Part shown: one piece after another, positions 18,740 through 26,989 of the stretch
Position numbering within the stretch: position 1 is the first letter of the stretch
How the letters are laid out: each line of letters starts with the position of its first letter
Source of the DNA: a virus
Reading direction: 5' to 3' (one strand)
Virus record (IMG/VR): IMGVR_UViG_3300028581_000203
Location: 1 to 27,430 of that record
DNA length: 27,430 nt
The notes under the pieces: generated by a model
What the model was told of the DNA's origin: nothing
Databases searched by the model: none
Seen by the model: only the letters and a program-made list of their open reading frames with translations
Made by a program: the position numbers and the translations under genes

Positions 18740-19207
18740 TTACGCGTAAAATTCATGGTGGCCGACGGTGGCCACCCGTGTCATCTTCGTCTTCCAATCC
18801 GGGTTGACCGCCGTGGTGCAATATTGGCACGCGTGGTGCGCGGCGATCTCGGGGGTCCGCTCGATCGAGCCGTCGATCAGGCCGGAGGCGACGACCCAGC
18901 AGGCCCTTAAAGCGTAAGAACAACCGAATCTTGCATCGAAATTCCGGGCGATAATGGCCAGGTCGCCGGAATTCGGGTCGGAGGGGAGAAAACAGGAGAA
19001 TTGCCACGGCATCAGGCAGACTTCCTTGATGGTGTCGCCATCCCAGCCGCGGTGATCGACGCGCTCCAGAATGACGGAGCCGACGGCAATCTGCCCGTCG
19101 CGGCTTTCGCCCCGCGCCTCGCCGTAGAGGGTGAGGGCCAGGAGCTGCTTGTCGGTGAGGTGGCCGAAGGTAGAGAGAAGGTGCGCTTTCAATTCGGTGT
19201 TGGTCAT
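18740..19207 (-). CDS. Cell wall hydrolase, SleB-type endolysin (155 aa)
   Basis: LLALTLYGEARGESRDGQIAVGSVILERVDHRGWDGDTIKEVCLMPWQFSCFLPSDPNS carries the signature of the SleB/Hydrolase_2 family (lytic transglycosylase-like), with the presumed catalytic Glu in YGEARGE (E30). The C-terminal half continues with the family's H-x-x-Y and N-x-x-W-type positions (AAHHACQYCTTAVNPDWKTKM). It has no signal peptide, which fits holin-dependent release. I chose the ATG at 19207 (MTNTELKAHLL); it overlaps the previous stop as ATGA. Lysis genes here are hydrolase, then two membrane proteins. Confidence 0.87.
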   Translation of the reverse strand: MTNTELKAHLLSTFGHLTDKQLLALTLYGEARGESRDGQIAVGSVILERVDHRGWDGDTIKEVCLMPWQFSCFLPSDPNSGDLAIIARNFDARFGCSYALRACWVVASGLIDGSIERTPEIAAHHACQYCTTAVNPDWKTKMTRVATVGHHEFYA

Positions 19208-19458
19208 GGCATATCCCCCGTGGACAGGCACTTCAGCATTTGGGCGTAGTGGATGATCTTGTCGCAATCGGATAATGAAATCGCCTCCCGCTGGCGGTAG
19301 GCGTATTTGATGATGTTGCCGATGGCAAACGGCTGGAGGATGCCGCCTGCGCGGTAGAGGTCGATCGGTTGGACCAGGCCGCTTTTGTAATGACTGGAGC
19401 CATCCTTTTTCAGGGCGTCCCAAGAGCCTTCGATCGGTTTCGGTTTGCGTTCCTGCAT
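19204..19458 (-). CDS. Unknown small late protein (DUF3310-like layout, 84 aa)
   Basis: The start at 19458 (MQERKPKPIEGSWDALKKDGSSHYKSGLVQPIDLY) is chosen for TTTGGAGACC upstream. Residues 25-60 have the pattern HYKSG..QPIDLY..GG..QPFAIGNIIKYAYR, which resembles DUF3310 phage proteins (H-Y..G..QPI....G.....F..GN.IKY..R) often found in nucleotide-kinase-like or unknown phage genes. Such small proteins have no known role, and finding one just before an endolysin is unusual. It is the first gene after the terminator at 19474-19510. Confidence 0.65.
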   Translation of the reverse strand: MQERKPKPIEGSWDALKKDGSSHYKSGLVQPIDLYRAGGILQPFAIGNIIKYAYRQREAISLSDCDKIIHYAQMLKCLSTGDMP

Positions 19459-19473
19459 CGCGGTCTCCAAAAT

Positions 19474-19510
19474 AAAAAAAGAGGCCACCGGTCAATTGAC
19501 CGATGGCCTC
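19474..19510 (-). terminator. Strong intrinsic terminator at the middle/late boundary
   Basis: On the minus strand GAGGCCATCGGTC pairs with GACCGGTGGCCTC (19481-19510) in a 13-bp stem with an AATT loop, followed by seven Ts (19474-19480). Stem quality and T-run are textbook for rho-independent termination. It lies after the Com-like gene (stop at 19592) and before the first late gene (ATG at 19458). Confidence 0.88.
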
Positions 19511-19582
19511 TCAGGGCCTTGAGAACGCGCCGGCATCGTGGATGCTGCCCCCTCCCAGGGGGGTCTCGACGTCATAAATGTG
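19474..19582 (-). ncRNA. Candidate terminator-ended small RNA or antitermination leader
   Basis: Between a promoter-like site (19589-19617) and the terminator the minus strand gives roughly 105 bases without a plausible gene. It contains four local hairpins: CCCCC/GGGGG (loop TGGGA and neighbours, 19549-19564), GCATC/GATGC (loop CAC, 19533-19545), TCTCA/TGAGA (19508-19523) and the terminator stem. Each is exact and they follow each other closely. Such a compact series ending at a terminator is what small RNAs and leader RNAs look like. I cannot tell whether it is a free RNA, the leader of the lysis operon needing antitermination, or just the 3' UTR of the Com-like gene. Confidence 0.5.
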
Positions 19583-19588
19583 TCTGAT

Positions 19589-19617
19589 ACCCTAACGAAC
19601 AATTTCTATTTTGTCAA
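19589..19617 (-). promoter_or_regulatory. Putative sigma70-like promoter inside the 3' end of the Com-like gene
   Basis: The minus strand has a perfect TTGACA (19612-19617), a 17-base spacer, and TAGGGT (19589-19594), which matches TATAAT at 3 of 6 positions. The predicted start would be near 19582, immediately after the Com-like stop. The -10 is poor, so an activator may be needed; late promoters of Mu-like phages are activator dependent. Confidence 0.45.
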
Positions 19618-19792
19618 GAAATTTTTCTATATATTGTGCTTTAATCCACACGTAACCACAAGATTTAGCGTTCTGACATTTTAACTCGATTTCAAAATTA
19701 CCAGTGCAGCGGTTCCCTTTCGCGTCCATAATTCGGCTACCACAACTGGGACACGGAATCGGTATTTCGTCATGTCGCTTCATTGACTTCAT
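19592..19792 (-). CDS. Small zinc-finger protein, Com-like (66 aa)
   Basis: Residues 12-47 hold CPSC (C14, C17), then C29, C39 and C45: a Cys cluster that can bind zinc, with basic neighbours such as RHD and KCQNAKSCGY. The size and Cys-rich beginning resemble Mu Com, the small zinc protein that enables translation of mom mRNA, but the spacing does not match exactly and no mom-like gene follows it here. The gene looks AT-richer than its neighbours (minus-strand KIEIVR end and the ATATAT run at 19628-19634). It has GGAAGG upstream of the ATG. It could be a moron carried between the middle block and the terminator. Confidence 0.6.
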   Translation of the reverse strand: MKSMKRHDEIPIPCPSCGSRIMDAKGNRCTGNFEIELKCQNAKSCGYVWIKAQYIEKFLDKIEIVR

Positions 19793-19806
19793 TTATTGCG
19801 CCTTCC

Positions 19807-20547
19807 TCACATCGCCGCTGCCTGGCAATCGGCGTCGTAGGTGATATTGTTATGGCTCTGCCTGCACGGATCGCAATAGACCCGGCAGAGGGTCACCCCC
19901 GGGTTGAACATCTGCCGCTCGAACTCGATACCGCAATCCGGGCATTTACAGGCGACTATCATCTCCGCATTCCCGGCGATTAGCCTGATAAAGGGCGCGG
20001 CGTCCACGAGGCGGAGGTCGATCTCTTCTGGATGCGCAACGACAAAGGCCCGCACTGATTCCGGGCTGAAATACCATTGGTCGCCACCCTGGCTGGATTT
20101 GCGCAGGGTGCCGCGGCGCTTTCCCCGGAGCCAGCCCTTGGCGATCCACCGGGTGATAATGTGGTGGTTCTCTTGCCCGCCCCACAGAAAATTTTCAAGG
20201 CCGCGCAGGTTGAACCCATCGCCATCCGTGCTGAGGATTCCGAGGCGGCGGATCTTCAGCCTGATCGCCGTGATCGATCGGGGCGAGCCGAGCCGTTTCA
20301 GGCCTCCCCAGAGCTTCTTCATGCCCATTTGCGGATAATGGTCGAGGAGGTAGGTCTCCTCTTTGGGGGACCAGCGGGGCTCTTTGACGCGGGCGAGGCC
20401 CAGCGCCTGGGCCTTGCGTTTGACGTACTGACGCGGATATTTCGACCCGAGCAGGCGCATGATCTTGCAGGTCCGCAGGGTCGAACCGTCATAATGATCG
20501 CGGATGATTTGAAGCTCTTCTTCCGTGGGGTTGTATTTGCGCTTCAT
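19807..20547 (-). CDS. Myb/SANT-like DNA-binding protein with zinc ribbon (246 aa)
   Basis: Residues 5-105 carry two helical repeats, YNPTEEELQIIRDHYDGSTLRTCKIMRLLGSKYPRQYVKRKAQALG and PRWSPKEETYLLDHYPQMGMKKLWGGLKRLGSPRSITAIRLKIRRLG, each with the WSPKE..L...Y...G...I...L..R....I..R...LG pattern of Myb/SANT-type DNA-binding repeats. The C-terminal part has C202-x2-C205 and C225-x2-C228, a zinc ribbon. It sits between early and late genes where Mu has Mor and C, so a transcription activator role is a reasonable guess, but it is not related to Mor/C by sequence that I can see. The ATG at 20547 overlaps the previous stop (ATGA); the longer ORF upstream is not supported. Confidence 0.65.
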   Translation of the reverse strand: MKRKYNPTEEELQIIRDHYDGSTLRTCKIMRLLGSKYPRQYVKRKAQALGLARVKEPRWSPKEETYLLDHYPQMGMKKLWGGLKRLGSPRSITAIRLKIRRLGILSTDGDGFNLRGLENFLWGGQENHHIITRWIAKGWLRGKRRGTLRKSSQGGDQWYFSPESVRAFVVAHPEEIDLRLVDAAPFIRLIAGNAEMIVACKCPDCGIEFERQMFNPGVTLCRVYCDPCRQSHNNITYDADCQAAAM

Positions 20548-21584: not shown

Positions 21585-21748
21585 GGCTTCACCTCCGCCA
21601 GCGCTTTTCGGGCGCACTCCAGCAGGTGCTGCTCTGTATGAGACGGCAACACCAGATCGCCATATGCAGTGATAATTGCGGTTGCTAAATCAACAAGAAA
21701 AGCTTGCTGGTCGCGCGTTAACGCCTTTTCGTATTTCGTGTCGCTCAT
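21581..21748 (-). CDS. Small unknown early protein (55 aa)
   Basis: The start at 21748 (MSDTKYEKALTRDQQAFLVDLATAIITAYGDLVLPSHTEQHLLECARKALAEVKP) has CAAGGAGGAACGC upstream and overlaps the GemA-like stop as ATGA. The protein is a helical unit with LVDLATAIITAYGD as its hydrophobic core. The longer ORF to 21985 is in the shadow of the GemA-like gene. No known function. Confidence 0.7.
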   Translation of the reverse strand: MSDTKYEKALTRDQQAFLVDLATAIITAYGDLVLPSHTEQHLLECARKALAEVKP

Positions 21749-22236
21749 GCGTTCCTCCTTGATTCCATATGCTTGATCGTTGTGATGATCTGGACGGCCT
21801 TCGCGCTGTCCAGAAAGCGCAGGTCGTTTACGCCTGCAACCCTGCCGACGAAGGCGCGCAGCGCGACCTCCATATTGGCGAATCCTTTCGGCGCCCAGTG
21901 CCAGCGCATCAGCTCCCAGTCCGTCTCGATCCGGGCCAACTGGGCGGCGCTGGCCATGCCGGGCCGCCGCCCGAGGGACTTCCACTTTTTCAGCCTGGCC
22001 GTATAGCCGGTGAATTCGTGCGGGCCATGCGTTTTCGCAAAGCCCACGGTCTCCAGGTGGCGCATGACGGCCTCGAAGCCTCCCTGCGTTAGGTTGAGAG
22101 ACGACCGGACGCCGGCGACGTTTTGCAGCATCGCCCGGTAGGTCTCCTCGTCCATCCCCAGCTTGTTTTTGGCCGTGTGGAGCAGGGCCTTCTGACCGTC
22201 TGTTATGCCGCTGTATTTTCGGTTTGTGTATGCCAT
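21745..22236 (-). CDS. gemA: GemA-like protein (Mu gp16, DUF1018, 163 aa)
   Basis: YSGITDGQKALLHTAKNKLGMDEETYRAMLQNVAGVRSSLNLTQGGFEAVMRHLETVGF carries the DUF1018/GemA pattern (IH.AK..LG.DD.TYR..L....GV.S...LT...F..V...L...GF). GemA in Mu alters host gene expression and DNA topology during early infection. The C-terminal half includes ARIETDWELMRWHWAPKGFANMEVALRAFVGRVAGVNDLRFLDSAKAVQIITTIKHM, also typical of the family. AGGAGGCGG precedes the ATG. It sits in the early block just as in Mu. Confidence 0.9.
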   Translation of the reverse strand: MAYTNRKYSGITDGQKALLHTAKNKLGMDEETYRAMLQNVAGVRSSLNLTQGGFEAVMRHLETVGFAKTHGPHEFTGYTARLKKWKSLGRRPGMASAAQLARIETDWELMRWHWAPKGFANMEVALRAFVGRVAGVNDLRFLDSAKAVQIITTIKHMESRRNA

Positions 22237-23096: not shown

Positions 23097-23747
23097 TCAC
23101 CGATTACCTTTTATTTTTCCGCATTCGCCCACCAACTCGCCCAAGCGGGATGCAAGGGTTTTCAGGTTGGAAAGGGTCTCTTCATCCAGCTTTTCGACGG
23201 CGAAGAACCGCGCGGCGATCTCCCGGATCTCGTTCATGCAGGCGTCCAGATCTCGCGTTTTGCTCTGCGCCCTCATCACCGGCCAGTCGTCGCTTGTCAG
23301 ATAGGCGTCTTCGCCGAGGTAGAGTGGCGCGTAGGACGTGACGGCCACCTGCGCCCGGCCCTCCTGGCGCACCACGCCCTTTTCCAGCAGCCAGGCTACG
23401 TATTTTTGGGCCATGTAGAGCGAGCACCCGGCCAGCTCGGCGATCCGGCGGGCGGTGAACGGGTTGCCGTTTTTCGAGCGCATCCACATGATCCGCTGCA
23501 TGACCCGCTGGGTTTTGCAGTAGGCGCTCTCGGGGCGGTCGGCCAGGTAGATGTAGCAGCCCCGCTCGGCACGCTCGCACTGTTTCGCCCTCATCAGGTC
23601 GCAGATGGCGCGGTGGACGCGGTTGTAGCCCTCCTCGCCGGAGAGGCCGATCCGGTCGCGGATCTCGGGGACGCGCAGCGGAGCAGATGCTGTTTTCAGG
23701 ACACCACGCACCTTGCCTTGTGTGCTGAGAGGGTTGGCCGTTTTCAT
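23097..23747 (-). CDS. Double winged-helix DNA-binding protein (216 aa)
   Basis: Two similar helix-turn-helix blocks can be seen. The first, residues about 9-66, has KVRGVLKTASAPLRVPEIRDRIGLSGEEGYNRVHRAICDLMRAKQCERAERG; the second, about 82-135, has VMQRIMWMRSKNGNPFTARRIAELAGCSLYMAQKYVAWLLEKGVVRQEG. Each has a winged-helix pattern of two helices, a recognition helix and a polar wing. A C-terminal helical tail (LDACMNEIREIAARFFAVEKLDEETLSNLKTLASRLGELVGECG) follows. It overlaps the MuB-like stop by ATGA, so it belongs to the transposition operon. A role in replication or early regulation is plausible but not established. Confidence 0.72.
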   Translation of the reverse strand: MKTANPLSTQGKVRGVLKTASAPLRVPEIRDRIGLSGEEGYNRVHRAICDLMRAKQCERAERGCYIYLADRPESAYCKTQRVMQRIMWMRSKNGNPFTARRIAELAGCSLYMAQKYVAWLLEKGVVRQEGRAQVAVTSYAPLYLGEDAYLTSDDWPVMRAQSKTRDLDACMNEIREIAARFFAVEKLDEETLSNLKTLASRLGELVGECGKIKGNR

Positions 23748-24520
23748 GATGGCGTCTTCCCCAGTATCCGGATCGATTTCGGATCTTTGATCCCGTACAT
23801 CCGTTTGGTCAGGTTCTCTGCCCGGTTGACGGCGGCGTCGATCATCTTGGGGGCGATCGCGCTCGTCGCATTCGTCCGGCAGGCCTCCTCCAGCGTCAGC
23901 AGGTAGCCGACCAGGTAACGGAAATCTCCCTCGATGTAGCGGCCAAGCAGATCCGCCGCCTCATGGGTGATGGAGAGTCCCGTCCACTCCTTTGTGATCA
24001 TGATAATCTCCGGCGTGGATACCGGCTGAAACTCCACGATCGCCGCCGGCAGGATCCGGCTGAAAAACTGGCCGTGCTTCTGGAGCTTGCCGTGGATCGC
24101 CTCCATCCCGATCAAGATGATCGGAACCTTCGTCATATCGTGGATGTCGCGGATGATGTTCAGCATCCGGCTGCCGCCGTTGAAAAGATAGTCCGCCTCG
24201 TCGATGAAGAGGGGTCGCCCCCAGCGCCTGAAGCCGGCAATGACCTGGTCACAGAGGCGGTCCAGGCGATAGAGCGCGTCGCCGATCTTCGCGATGCTGC
24301 CCGTTTCTTCCAGCAATCGCCGGGCGTTCCAGGTTTCCAGCATCCGGATGTAGAAGGTCTCGCTCTGGCCGTAATAGGCCTCCACCACCTCGGTTTTCCC
24401 ATAGCCCCACTTGCCGTAGATCAGCCCCAGACCGGGGAGCGATGGGTCGCGATTCACCAGGGCCTCGACGGCGGCCGCCACCTTGTTGAAATTGTCCGTG
24501 CGGATAAAACTTTTATTCAT
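23744..24520 (-). CDS. B: DNA transposition protein, AAA+ ATPase (MuB-like, 258 aa)
   Basis: This is the ATP-dependent target-DNA-binding partner of the transposase, which selects sites and activates strand transfer. The Walker A motif is GKWGYGKT (residues 36-43) and Walker B is PLFIDEADYLF (103-113), followed by IIRDIHDMTKVPIILIGMEAIHGKL. Mu B is 312 aa, so this is on the short side and seems to lack the N-terminal helix-turn-helix of Mu B. I chose the ATG at 24520 (MNKSFIRTDNFNKV) because GGGAGGAACC precedes it; the frame open to 24565 only has a TTG. It overlaps the next gene by 4 bases. Confidence 0.92.
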   Translation of the reverse strand: MNKSFIRTDNFNKVAAAVEALVNRDPSLPGLGLIYGKWGYGKTEVVEAYYGQSETFYIRMLETWNARRLLEETGSIAKIGDALYRLDRLCDQVIAGFRRWGRPLFIDEADYLFNGGSRMLNIIRDIHDMTKVPIILIGMEAIHGKLQKHGQFFSRILPAAIVEFQPVSTPEIIMITKEWTGLSITHEAADLLGRYIEGDFRYLVGYLLTLEEACRTNATSAIAPKMIDAAVNRAENLTKRMYGIKDPKSIRILGKTPS

Positions 24521-24533
24521 TGGTTCCTCCCTT

Positions 24534-24575
24534 TCAGAATAGGTTTCGCTCCCGTAATTGATCAATATTAATCAT
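24534..24575 (-). CDS. Possible 13-codon coupling mini-ORF between transposase and MuB-like gene
   Basis: ATGATTAATATTGAT overlaps the transposase TGA (ATGA) and reads MINIDQLRERNLF then TGA, ending 13 bases before the MuB-like ATG. It would keep ribosomes moving from the transposase to B, as do other ATGA overlaps in this operon. It could equally be chance; no ribosome site supports it. Confidence 0.25.
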   Translation of the reverse strand: MINIDQLRERNLF

Positions 24576-26989
24576 CTATTCTCTCCCTTCGATACAAGGT
24601 ACTGCATATATTTAAATTGCTCCTCGTATAGCTGTTGCGAATCCCTATATTCCTGAGATTTTTCAAACTCTCCCCGCGCTAACTGCTGCTCCGGCGTCAG
24701 ATCCCAACCTCCGGCCAACTTGGGGAGGATTTGTCCCTTGTACCGGTCCGCCCGGCGGATAAACATGAGCTCATCATAGGGGCAAGCCTCCTCCCCAGGG
24801 GCCGTCTGTGCGCCCTCGCTGGCGGGCGAGGCTTCGCCCTCGTTTTCCGTCATGTCCGTTGCGGGCTGATACTCCGGCATGGCCACCCCGTCCCCCTGCG
24901 TGATCGCCAAGAGCGCCGCCGCCTCGTTTGCCTCTTCCTGCACGGCCGGGTGATCCTGGATCATCTTGATCGTTCCAACGGAAGACCGTTTCTGATAAGC
25001 GCCCAGCTTCAGTTTATCGACCATCACCGGATCGTTCGGCGTGACGAAGGAGGCCCGGTTCAGCAGGCGGGCGTTGCATTGCCAGACGCCATCCTTGTAA
25101 ACCCGGACGGTTTTGTAATCGTAATCGAAAAAGATGGTTGCCCATGTACCGATCAGAATATTCAGGATATTCCCGCCCTGGAGGTTCACGGGCACGGCAA
25201 GTTCAAACTGTTTTCCGTTTAAGTTGAAGCCCCAGTTGTGGATTTTCACCGATTCCTTTTTCAGGAGGGCAAAGTCCAGGAGCTGCGGTTCGCAGGTTTG
25301 CGGCGTGGGCATGAGCGAGGCGAAGACCTCGTCGGGCGTCCGACCGTCCATCCCGTGGCCGCGGTGGGGCGTCTTGTGGTATTTGTTCACGACCCAGCCG
25401 TAGAACCGGTCGCAGAATTCCTCGATGGTGAGGATCATCTGGCCGCTTTTCAGCTCGAAGGTCAGCTTTTCGGGCCGATGTTCATGACCCGATCCGCACC
25501 AACCCGGCAGGTCACGCGAGAAGGATTGCACGAGGGTGCGGTGGAAGCGTTCGATCGGCTTCGCCCAGGGATGGTAGGCCGTGGCGTAGCGCTGGCCGAT
25601 TCCCAGCCTTGCATAGACACCGCCCACGCGCACGCCCTTGATTTCAATGAACTTGTCGCCGTGCTTCTTTACCCAGGCGTTTTGTTCCGGATCAAACTCC
25701 AGGTCGATGTAGTAGGGGTCGATCCCCAGGGCGGCGAACCGCTCGATGATGTCCGGATAATCGATCTTGCCGATGACGATCTCCTCGCCGTTTAAATATT
25801 TCGCCCGGTAATCCTTGCCGTTGTCGATGTAGACGGAAGAGGGGATGCCGCACTGGAGATAAGCCGGGTCGTCTTTGGGGCTGATGGCGTGGGCCAGCGC
25901 CATTGCAATCGTCCGGGAGTTCGGCGCGAAGGAGATGCACCAGCCCATGAGCGACCGGCTCCGCATGTCCAGCCAGGAGGTCAGCCAGGGGCGCTTGTAT
26001 TGCCAGCCGCCCTTGCCGTCCGGCAGTTTCACGAAGACATCAAAGATATGATGATCGCCGCACCACATGAAATTGGGCGGGATCTCTTCGTAATTGCGGA
26101 GAATCTTGTTGATATGGTCGGCGTCAAAGCGCTTCTGGCCTTCCCTGGCCAGGGTGGTGGTGGCCGGATCGAGGCGCTTGAGGTAATTGCAGAGGGATGC
26201 GTAGGTGCCGACCTGCCAATTCTTCCCCGCGGCATAGGCGATGGTCTGCTCATAGGTGTCCCGCATGTTGCGCATCTGGCCCGTTGTATGGAGGGAAAAG
26301 GCGTAGATCACGGCGTTTTTGTCGAAGGCGCGGACCTTGTCTTTGTTTCTTCCCCACTTCGGCGTCAGCGCCGCGATCTGGGCCATGATGGTGTCTTCGC
26401 CCTTCTTTTGGGCGGCCTTCATCGCCTTGTCGGCGCGTCCCAGCAAACGATAGAGCGACCGGTAGTGAAAGCCGACGCTTGCGGCATAGGCCGTGAGCGC
26501 GGGCGTGATCTTGTTTTTGGGCGTCGTGGCCTGGATGTCCCGAACCTTGTTGATGATTGACAGGATGTCATAGCTCTTGTCGCGGCTGGATTCGGGCAGG
26601 GATTGCCAGGCTGCGACCGGCGTCATGGCCGTAAGGTCGCTGCCGCCGCCGTTGGGGTTGATAATCTCCTGCAGGTCAACGATCTTGCTTTGCTTTTTTA
26701 GCGCCGGGGGCAGTGCCGCGGGGACCGGAACGGGGAGGTTTTCGGGGTTGGTCACTGTGCTATTAGTATTATATGTGTGTTCCTCGCGGTGTTTTTCGAG
26801 CCAGAGGCTCTGAATCTTGCCTGGGAGGGCATGGAGAATATATTTTTTAATCACGCCACCATTCCCACGCTCTTCAATGAAAGCCCAAGATTCCGTTGCC
26901 GCGCGTTTCCTGATCGCCTGCTTAGATATGTTCGTTAGTTCGGATAAGTCTTTGGCTGTCAATAGTGCTGTTTGTCCGCTCTCATGCAT
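24572..26989 (-). CDS. A: Phage transposase, DDE recombinase (MuA-like, 805 aa)
   Basis: The enzyme cuts phage ends and joins them to target DNA for integration and replicative transposition. The N-terminal helix-turn-helix is residues 1-67 (TAKDLSELTNISKQAIRKRAATESWAFIEERGNGG). The catalytic core has MWCGDHHIFDVFV (D312), SVYIDNGKDYRAKY (D389) and AKPIERFHR (E480), which align by eye with Mu A D269, D336 and E392. A Mu transposase C-terminal domain follows from about residue 560 (KESVKIHNWGFNLNGKQFELAVPVNLQGGNILNILIGTWATIFFDYDYKTVRVYKDG). At 805 aa it is about 140 aa longer than Mu A (663 aa). It begins 12 bases after an upstream unknown gene. The extra length is mainly between about 70-150 and at the acidic C-terminus (700-805). 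Confidence 0.95.
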   Translation of the reverse strand: MHESGQTALLTAKDLSELTNISKQAIRKRAATESWAFIEERGNGGVIKKYILHALPGKIQSLWLEKHREEHTYNTNSTVTNPENLPVPVPAALPPALKKQSKIVDLQEIINPNGGGSDLTAMTPVAAWQSLPESSRDKSYDILSIINKVRDIQATTPKNKITPALTAYAASVGFHYRSLYRLLGRADKAMKAAQKKGEDTIMAQIAALTPKWGRNKDKVRAFDKNAVIYAFSLHTTGQMRNMRDTYEQTIAYAAGKNWQVGTYASLCNYLKRLDPATTTLAREGQKRFDADHINKILRNYEEIPPNFMWCGDHHIFDVFVKLPDGKGGWQYKRPWLTSWLDMRSRSLMGWCISFAPNSRTIAMALAHAISPKDDPAYLQCGIPSSVYIDNGKDYRAKYLNGEEIVIGKIDYPDIIERFAALGIDPYYIDLEFDPEQNAWVKKHGDKFIEIKGVRVGGVYARLGIGQRYATAYHPWAKPIERFHRTLVQSFSRDLPGWCGSGHEHRPEKLTFELKSGQMILTIEEFCDRFYGWVVNKYHKTPHRGHGMDGRTPDEVFASLMPTPQTCEPQLLDFALLKKESVKIHNWGFNLNGKQFELAVPVNLQGGNILNILIGTWATIFFDYDYKTVRVYKDGVWQCNARLLNRASFVTPNDPVMVDKLKLGAYQKRSSVGTIKMIQDHPAVQEEANEAAALLAITQGDGVAMPEYQPATDMTENEGEASPASEGAQTAPGEEACPYDELMFIRRADRYKGQILPKLAGGWDLTPEQQLARGEFEKSQEYRDSQQLYEEQFKYMQYLVSKGENR

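Follow-up and report, generated by a model that had tools for sequence, protein, structure and literature searches.

A terminated leader with Com-type hairpins before the late genes of a transposable phage: a candidate switch by regulated readthrough

How are the late genes of a transposable phage turned on when no recognisable activator of the Mu kind accompanies them? Mu itself activates its middle and late genes through Mor and C (PMC4287176, PMC4461284). The stretch analysed here, a virus record of 27.4 kb (27,430 nucleotides; the window), belongs to a transposable phage, as is apparent from genes for a transposase (24572-26989), a MuB-type protein (23744-24565) and GemA (21745-22236). These, the terminase and portal genes that are also present, and all other features discussed below are on the minus strand. 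No Mor/C homologue (PF08765) was found in the window. At the junction between its middle and late genes there are a promoter, a series of hairpins and a strong terminator, which the preliminary description took for a new small RNA or the leader of an antiterminated lysis operon, or more simply for the 3′ UTR of a Com-like gene.

The gene directly upstream of the junction (19592..19792) encodes a protein of 66 amino acids with a CCCC zinc ribbon, which is Com-like and a candidate RNA-binding antiterminator. Upstream of it is a gene (19807..20547) whose 246-aa product has a basic N-terminal half and, at the C-terminal end, a CxxC zinc motif. This larger protein matched no known family, and the single relative found for it, 58% identical, is likewise just upstream of a late leader/terminator module (contig L007); it is possibly a second late regulator. 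The stretch around the zinc-ribbon gene is AT-rich, with 38.5% GC as against about 60% in the surrounding region. The window DNA had no match in the phage collection, and either of the two upstream proteins, as sole query, yielded few relatives or none. On the other side of the terminator are lysis and late genes, as had been described, though the SleB-type hydrolase is the second of them and not the first. First comes DUF3310 (19204..19458; Pfam PF11753, E = 3e-11), its ATG at 19458 being 16 nt past the T-run, and then the SleB-type cell wall hydrolase (Hydrolase_2, 18740..19204; Pfam PF07486, E = 4e-15), the presumed endolysin of the late operon.

The promoter has the elements originally ascribed to it, a −35 TTGACA (19612..19617) and a −10 TAGGGT (19589..19594) separated by 17 nt, and just 5′ of the −35 is an A-tract (19618..19628) that is UP-element-like and conserved in relatives. 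From the sequence, RNA is expected to start near 19582. In correction of the preliminary description, the −35 is inside the 3′ end of the zinc-ribbon gene. Because the −10 is weak (3/6), a plain sigma70 scan misses this promoter. A matrix trained on 26 relatives, with the window phage excluded, placed it above every other site on either strand of the window, with a score of 24.0 versus 19.5 for the next site, and no further late promoter was seen in the matrix scan of the window. Of 39 relatives, 22 have an exact TTGAC within 90–200 nt 5′ of the junction terminator, the distances running from 125 to 193 nt, where dinucleotide shuffles gave 2.9 on average and never more than 8 in 500; other terminators of the same DNA have it in 14 of 84 cases. 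Relatives aligned on TTGAC share the A-tract in front of it (72–92% A at positions −9 to −5 relative to TTGACA) and a −10 at 17-nt spacing; no common spacer motif is visible in 25 aligned promoters.

The transcript expected from this promoter, if terminated, is ~105 nt long. Its intrinsic terminator is exact as reported, with a stem of 15 pairs (around 19481..19512) and the T-run TTTTTTT at 19474..19480; many relatives have a strong terminator at the same place. The window leader folds better than all 200 of its shuffles (z = −3.9), and the best Rfam matches to 19300-19800 are far below gathering scores. The first part of the leader is a three-way junction (19527..19572) for which covariation provides the evidence. 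Within it P1 (ACGUCG/CGGCGC) encloses AGA, then P2 (CCCCC-CUGGGA-GGGGG, 19548..19563), CA and P3 (GCAUC-CAC-GAUGC, 19533..19545, variable in sequence). A further hairpin, P4 (GGCC-CUGAGA-GGCC, 19505..19518), overlaps the terminator stem and is a candidate antiterminator. The three hairpins of the preliminary description fare differently on this model. That at 19533-19545 is exact and that at 19549-19564 is off by one, the real limits being 19548-19563. The third, UCUCA/UGAGA at 19508-19523, exists and is unconserved, what relatives share instead being P4.

Is this arrangement peculiar to the window? Searches with portal and SleB turned up about 145 related loci, and many of these have a strong intrinsic terminator 3–5.5 kb before the portal gene, usually 20–30 nt ahead of a lysis-type gene. 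The recurrent module consists of an A-tract and TTGACA promoter, a structured leader of 95–150 nt, a strong intrinsic terminator and a lysis-type gene, the first genes after the terminator encoding Amidase_2, GH108, M15 peptidases, SleB or short membrane-type proteins. Since the start codon is usually 20–30 nt past the T-run, there is no room for a promoter between the two. Leader sequences are unlike between groups, and it is thus the architecture that is conserved and not the sequence. With all leader groups taken together, a hairpin overlapping the base of the terminator occurs in 15 of 27 modules, where 4.35 would be expected.

Several loci depart from the window in detail. Eight (L011, L081, L080, L086, L100, L107, L141 and L119) have the layout of promoter, leader and terminator before late genes with unrelated leader RNA and no zinc-ribbon match; other regulators probably serve the same layout there. 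In L306:4300-4600 a P4-type hairpin (CC UUC GAG) and a terminator come immediately after a zinc-ribbon gene and before the gene for a large, presumably structural, protein; promoter, P1–P3 and lysis gene are missing, and the locus may represent the switch in minimal form in another type of phage. In the leader at L114:4200-4330 about 53 nt are duplicated in tandem (GAGUGGCCAGGGUGUCCCCCUGUGGUACGCUGCAGGGCGC twice), and at L001:2690-3060 many degenerate short GGC-rich repeats (ggcaaggc, ggcgaggt) are upstream of the zinc-ribbon gene.

One leader structure is common to at least 11 distinct phages: P1 enclosing AGA, the P2 hexaloop, CA (CU in one phage of the 11) and P3, with P4 and the terminator following. 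The group was assembled by pattern search and filtering, the loose DNA pattern giving mostly chance matches from which those with a terminator were retained; a first covariation count was made on 8 phages. MAFFT aligned the leader poorly and the structural alignment was made by hand, with N padding, slid-pair controls and held-out matches serving as guards against circularity. Over the 21 pairs in the 11 phages, 99.1% of cells are standard pairs versus 33–45% when the partners are slid by 1–3 columns. Two-sided compensatory changes are present in 16 of the 21 pairs, every one of P1–P3 has such changes (P3 in all 6 of its pairs in relatives), and none of 500 shuffles reached any of the covariation measures. 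The comparison in homologues that the preliminary description had called for thus gives a strong result. A covariance model of 8 phages, the window being one of them (its match to the window has E = 2.2e-9), also matches three held-out phages (E = 6e-9 to 1.5e-6) that had been chosen by their P4/terminator pattern and not by P1–P3. Inside the group P4 does not vary (GGCC/GGCC), and the search pattern that brought in several of the phages included P4. What speaks for P4 is accordingly not covariation among these phages but the fact that it recurs in other leader groups, together with loop matching. On comparative grounds, then, the leader is a strongly covarying structured RNA that is absent from Rfam. 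Searched with the covariance model, the DNA pattern or a zinc-ribbon profile, genomes from the class or phylum of the relatives gave nothing or chance matches, and virus contigs are thus the only source of the element in this analysis.

What might such an RNA be recognised by? The site of Mu-type Com, as defined by SELEX, gel shift and SHAPE, is a hairpin with a six-base loop, 5′-CC(N)2-3GAG-3′, in which the closing pair is C-G and the GA is essential (PMC6483171). Both P2 (CC UGG GAG) and P4 (CC UGA GAG) fit this site, each having the hexaloop CCNNNGAG closed by C-G and adjoining the zinc-ribbon gene, and they are the only Com-type hairpins with a stem of at least 4 bp on the minus strand of the window. 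Two or more such hairpins occur in 0.02% of shuffled leaders, and of 17 loci, 8 have a Com hairpin in the P2 zone where 0.34 would be expected. Run on known Com phages as a positive control, the scan picked out the mom site of Mu and equivalent sites in four further phages, though not in a fifth; the hairpin is 25–32 nt before the target start in Mu, JD024, B3, Mcat3 and UMP151. Within a phage the P2 and P4 loops are alike (CUUGGA twice in L129, L211 and L296, CGGGGA twice in L124, CAGGGA twice in L312), as is expected if one protein reads both. P2 of L167 is without GAG, and a second group has GCG in its place. A second subgroup (L072, L092, L109 and L319) has CUGAGC loops (CCNNNGCG) and a distinct zinc-ribbon subfamily, type of loop apparently tracking type of protein; the leader of L072 and L092 is four-way rather than three-way. 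Sites of the CsrA type were set aside by eye, GGA being missing from many loops. The preliminary description was silent on the match of the hairpins to Com sites and on the Com-like gene as their likely partner.

The leader appears to work like a Com target, while the zinc-ribbon protein is no more than a possible member of the Com family. Its four cysteines (C14, C17, C39 and C45) are invariant in 8 relatives. Com of Mu and of B3 match Pfam Com (PF10122); the window protein and its close relatives fall below the cut-off and do not. In an hhalign comparison of the window-type protein with the Com family the probability was 57% (P = 1.1e-4), colinear over all four cysteines, compared with P = 0.07 for a TraR-type control, and the relationship to Com is suggestive. 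In most members the relatives of the zinc-ribbon gene end near the leader promoter, usually about 50–100 nt before P4, and in L124 and L312 the gene is further off. Of 27 module loci, 14 have such a gene no more than 1 kb upstream, as against none of 8 Mor phages, and about half of module loci have no zinc-ribbon match nearby. In L298 the protein upstream of the same arrangement of P2, P4 and terminator is Com by the Pfam cut-off (26.3 > 22.9). At L298:6780-7010 (minus strand; also in L299 and L302) the last codons of the Pfam-Com gene overlap a P2-type hairpin, GUCC-CCUGAGC-GGAC, after which come P4 and the terminator, a 60-aa ORF and an apparent terminase start.

The relation between P4 and the terminator is what gives the arrangement the look of a switch. 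GAG of the P4 loop and the GGCC of its 3′ arm are the 5′ base of the terminator stem, and therefore P4 and the terminator are mutually exclusive. Unaided, the terminator is the more stable by 2–15 kcal/mol in all 14 leaders folded, which makes termination the default and means that P4 needs help; P4 is present in the nascent minimum-energy fold of just 8 of the 14. On balance it is probable, judging from sequence, that the region is a late-gene switch acting by regulated readthrough, with the Com-like protein lifting the terminator through P2 and P4. The sigma70-type promoter in the 3′ end of the com-like gene would make a leader of ~105 nt that by default ends at the terminator, keeping the lysis and late operon off. 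The protein encoded just upstream would meanwhile accumulate, which would set the timing, and would then bind P2 and P4 on the nascent RNA. P4, being held, would occupy GAGGCC, the 5′ foot of the terminator, and so block it, and RNA polymerase would read through into the DUF3310, SleB, holin, packaging and capsid genes. This would be the main late switch of the phage.

Consistent with such a role, the module and Mor are, in the contigs compared, mutually exclusive. Mor is present in none of 24 phages with the module versus 9 of 22 without it (46 phages compared; Fisher p = 0.0005, rising to 0.0013 with a required minimum of 1 kb upstream, p-values that are weakened by fragmentary contigs and shared ancestry). 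One of the nine, L123, has a weak Mor-like match below the curated cut-off together with a strong junction terminator, and in L009 and L010 a Mor-type gene is directly before SleB with no terminator. Transposable phages would then not all use Mor/C for their late genes. Of the readings originally offered, that of an antiterminated lysis-operon leader is well supported by the conserved promoter and pre-lysis terminator, the lack of promoter room, the covariation and the exclusion of Mor.

The main rival to readthrough by the Com-like protein is control of the Q kind, in which a DNA-binding antiterminator, for example the 246-aa protein, would load on polymerase at the promoter and the leader RNA would have a minor or other role. 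The late promoter of lambda has the same layout of regulator gene, promoter, short leader, terminator and lysis genes (PMC6606751), some module phages are without a zinc-ribbon match and have unrelated leaders, and the 246-aa protein is upstream in both the window and L007. A conserved leader RNA is not needed by Q-type factors, yet this leader covaries strongly and carries Com sites. With the scanned upstream proteins matching no known Q family or antiterminator (Pfam, PHROGs), and the 246-aa protein occurring in one other contig only, Q-like control is unlikely.

Translational activation through such a hairpin is the only known job of Com (PMC6483171), and the position of the hairpin 25–32 nt before the target start in Com phages invites the thought that here too a protein on the leader hairpins alters translation or stability of the late mRNA, the terminator merely ending the middle operon. 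This is quite improbable, as the ribosome site and start codon of the first late gene are 3′ of the T-run and outside the hairpins, T-run and promoter are both conserved, and a late promoter would not fit 3′ of the terminator.

A promoter, a structured body and a strong terminator are also what a gene for a small RNA looks like, and a trans-acting RNA of ~105 nt was one of the original suggestions, the late genes then using another route. For a simple small RNA the overlap of P4 and terminator would be superfluous, the leader sequences are wholly different among relatives while the pre-lysis position is kept, and another late promoter is not seen. A small RNA is unneeded to account for the locus and can be given little credence; nothing points to a role in trans, and the terminated transcript is a probable by-product of the off state.

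The put RNA of HK022, of ~70 nt with two stem-loops, suppresses intrinsic terminators alone (PMC9378689), and the present leader, similar in size and highly structured, might on that precedent bind polymerase when folded and need no phage protein. With a constitutive element of that sort directly ahead of it, a conserved terminator would serve no purpose, and both the zinc-ribbon linkage and the Com-site match would be left unexplained, so the chances of this reading are slim. Slimmer again are those of a Com-like protein that stabilises termination as a brake or timer keeping the late genes off: protein on nascent hairpins could act either way, but P4 competes with the terminator for shared bases, and binding at P4 should weaken the terminator. 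Least credible is an ordinary 3′ UTR of the com-like gene with its terminator, promoter and hairpins being coincidental, for though the −35 is inside the gene and the −10 is weak, the promoter between gene and leader is kept in 22 of 39 relatives and has the top matrix score in the window, and the leader covaries.

If readthrough by the Com-like protein is what the locus serves, it would be a third solution to late control in transposable phages, beside activation by Mor/C and antitermination by Q. To our knowledge, the main function known for Com is translational activation of Mu mom, and Com-like genes are scattered through many phages with no known target; the leader gives these proteins a plausible main role and predicts their exact binding sites. 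A wider proposition is narrowly favoured, that the Com-type zinc-ribbon family are RNA-guided antiterminators which, through paired hexaloop hairpins in a terminated leader, switch on a whole late operon, with protein and loop sequences co-diverging. The open-licence papers searched contained no report of antitermination by Com-type proteins, nor of transposable phages that use antitermination for their late genes. The parts are of known kinds (Com-type RNA binding, a terminated late leader, a protein-stabilised antiterminator) and their combination is apparently undescribed. The result would be a small RNA-protein antitermination switch that is easily tested.

Several known systems are close to it. 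Mor/C of Mu (PF08765) likewise switches late genes in transposable phages, and in L009 and L010 a Mor-type gene has this very place; however, it is activator-dependent initiation without a terminated leader, and neither the window nor any of the module phages searched has Mor. HK022 put, like the leader a nascent phage RNA with two hairpins, overrides termination (an override that is only proposed here), but it is protein-free and acts far downstream through the zinc domain of polymerase, whereas the site in the window overlaps the terminator. Lambda pR′-tR′ and Q share with the window a constitutive-looking promoter, a short terminated leader and lysis and late genes behind the terminator. 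Q loads through DNA at the promoter, whereas in the window no Q homologue is seen and the leader RNA is conserved with sites for RNA-protein contact. The antiterminators BglG and LicT act through a protein-stabilised hairpin overlapping the 5′ arm of a terminator, a stabilisation that is proposed here; no protein with CAT/PRD domains is among the scanned neighbours in the window, and the zinc ribbon, hexaloops and two copies of the site are distinctive of the present case. Com/mom of Mu (PF10122, Zn_ribbon_Com) controls translation of a DNA-modification gene, whereas the proposed target of the window leader is the late operon, its two sites are in a separate leader transcript with one overlapping the terminator, and the window protein is below the PF10122 cut-off. 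Shared by both are a small CCCC zinc-ribbon protein, the C-G-closed six-base loop CCNNNGAG, and binding that is assumed to alter a competing RNA structure in cis beside the com gene, and in L298 a Pfam-Com gene is joined directly to P2, P4 and the terminator.
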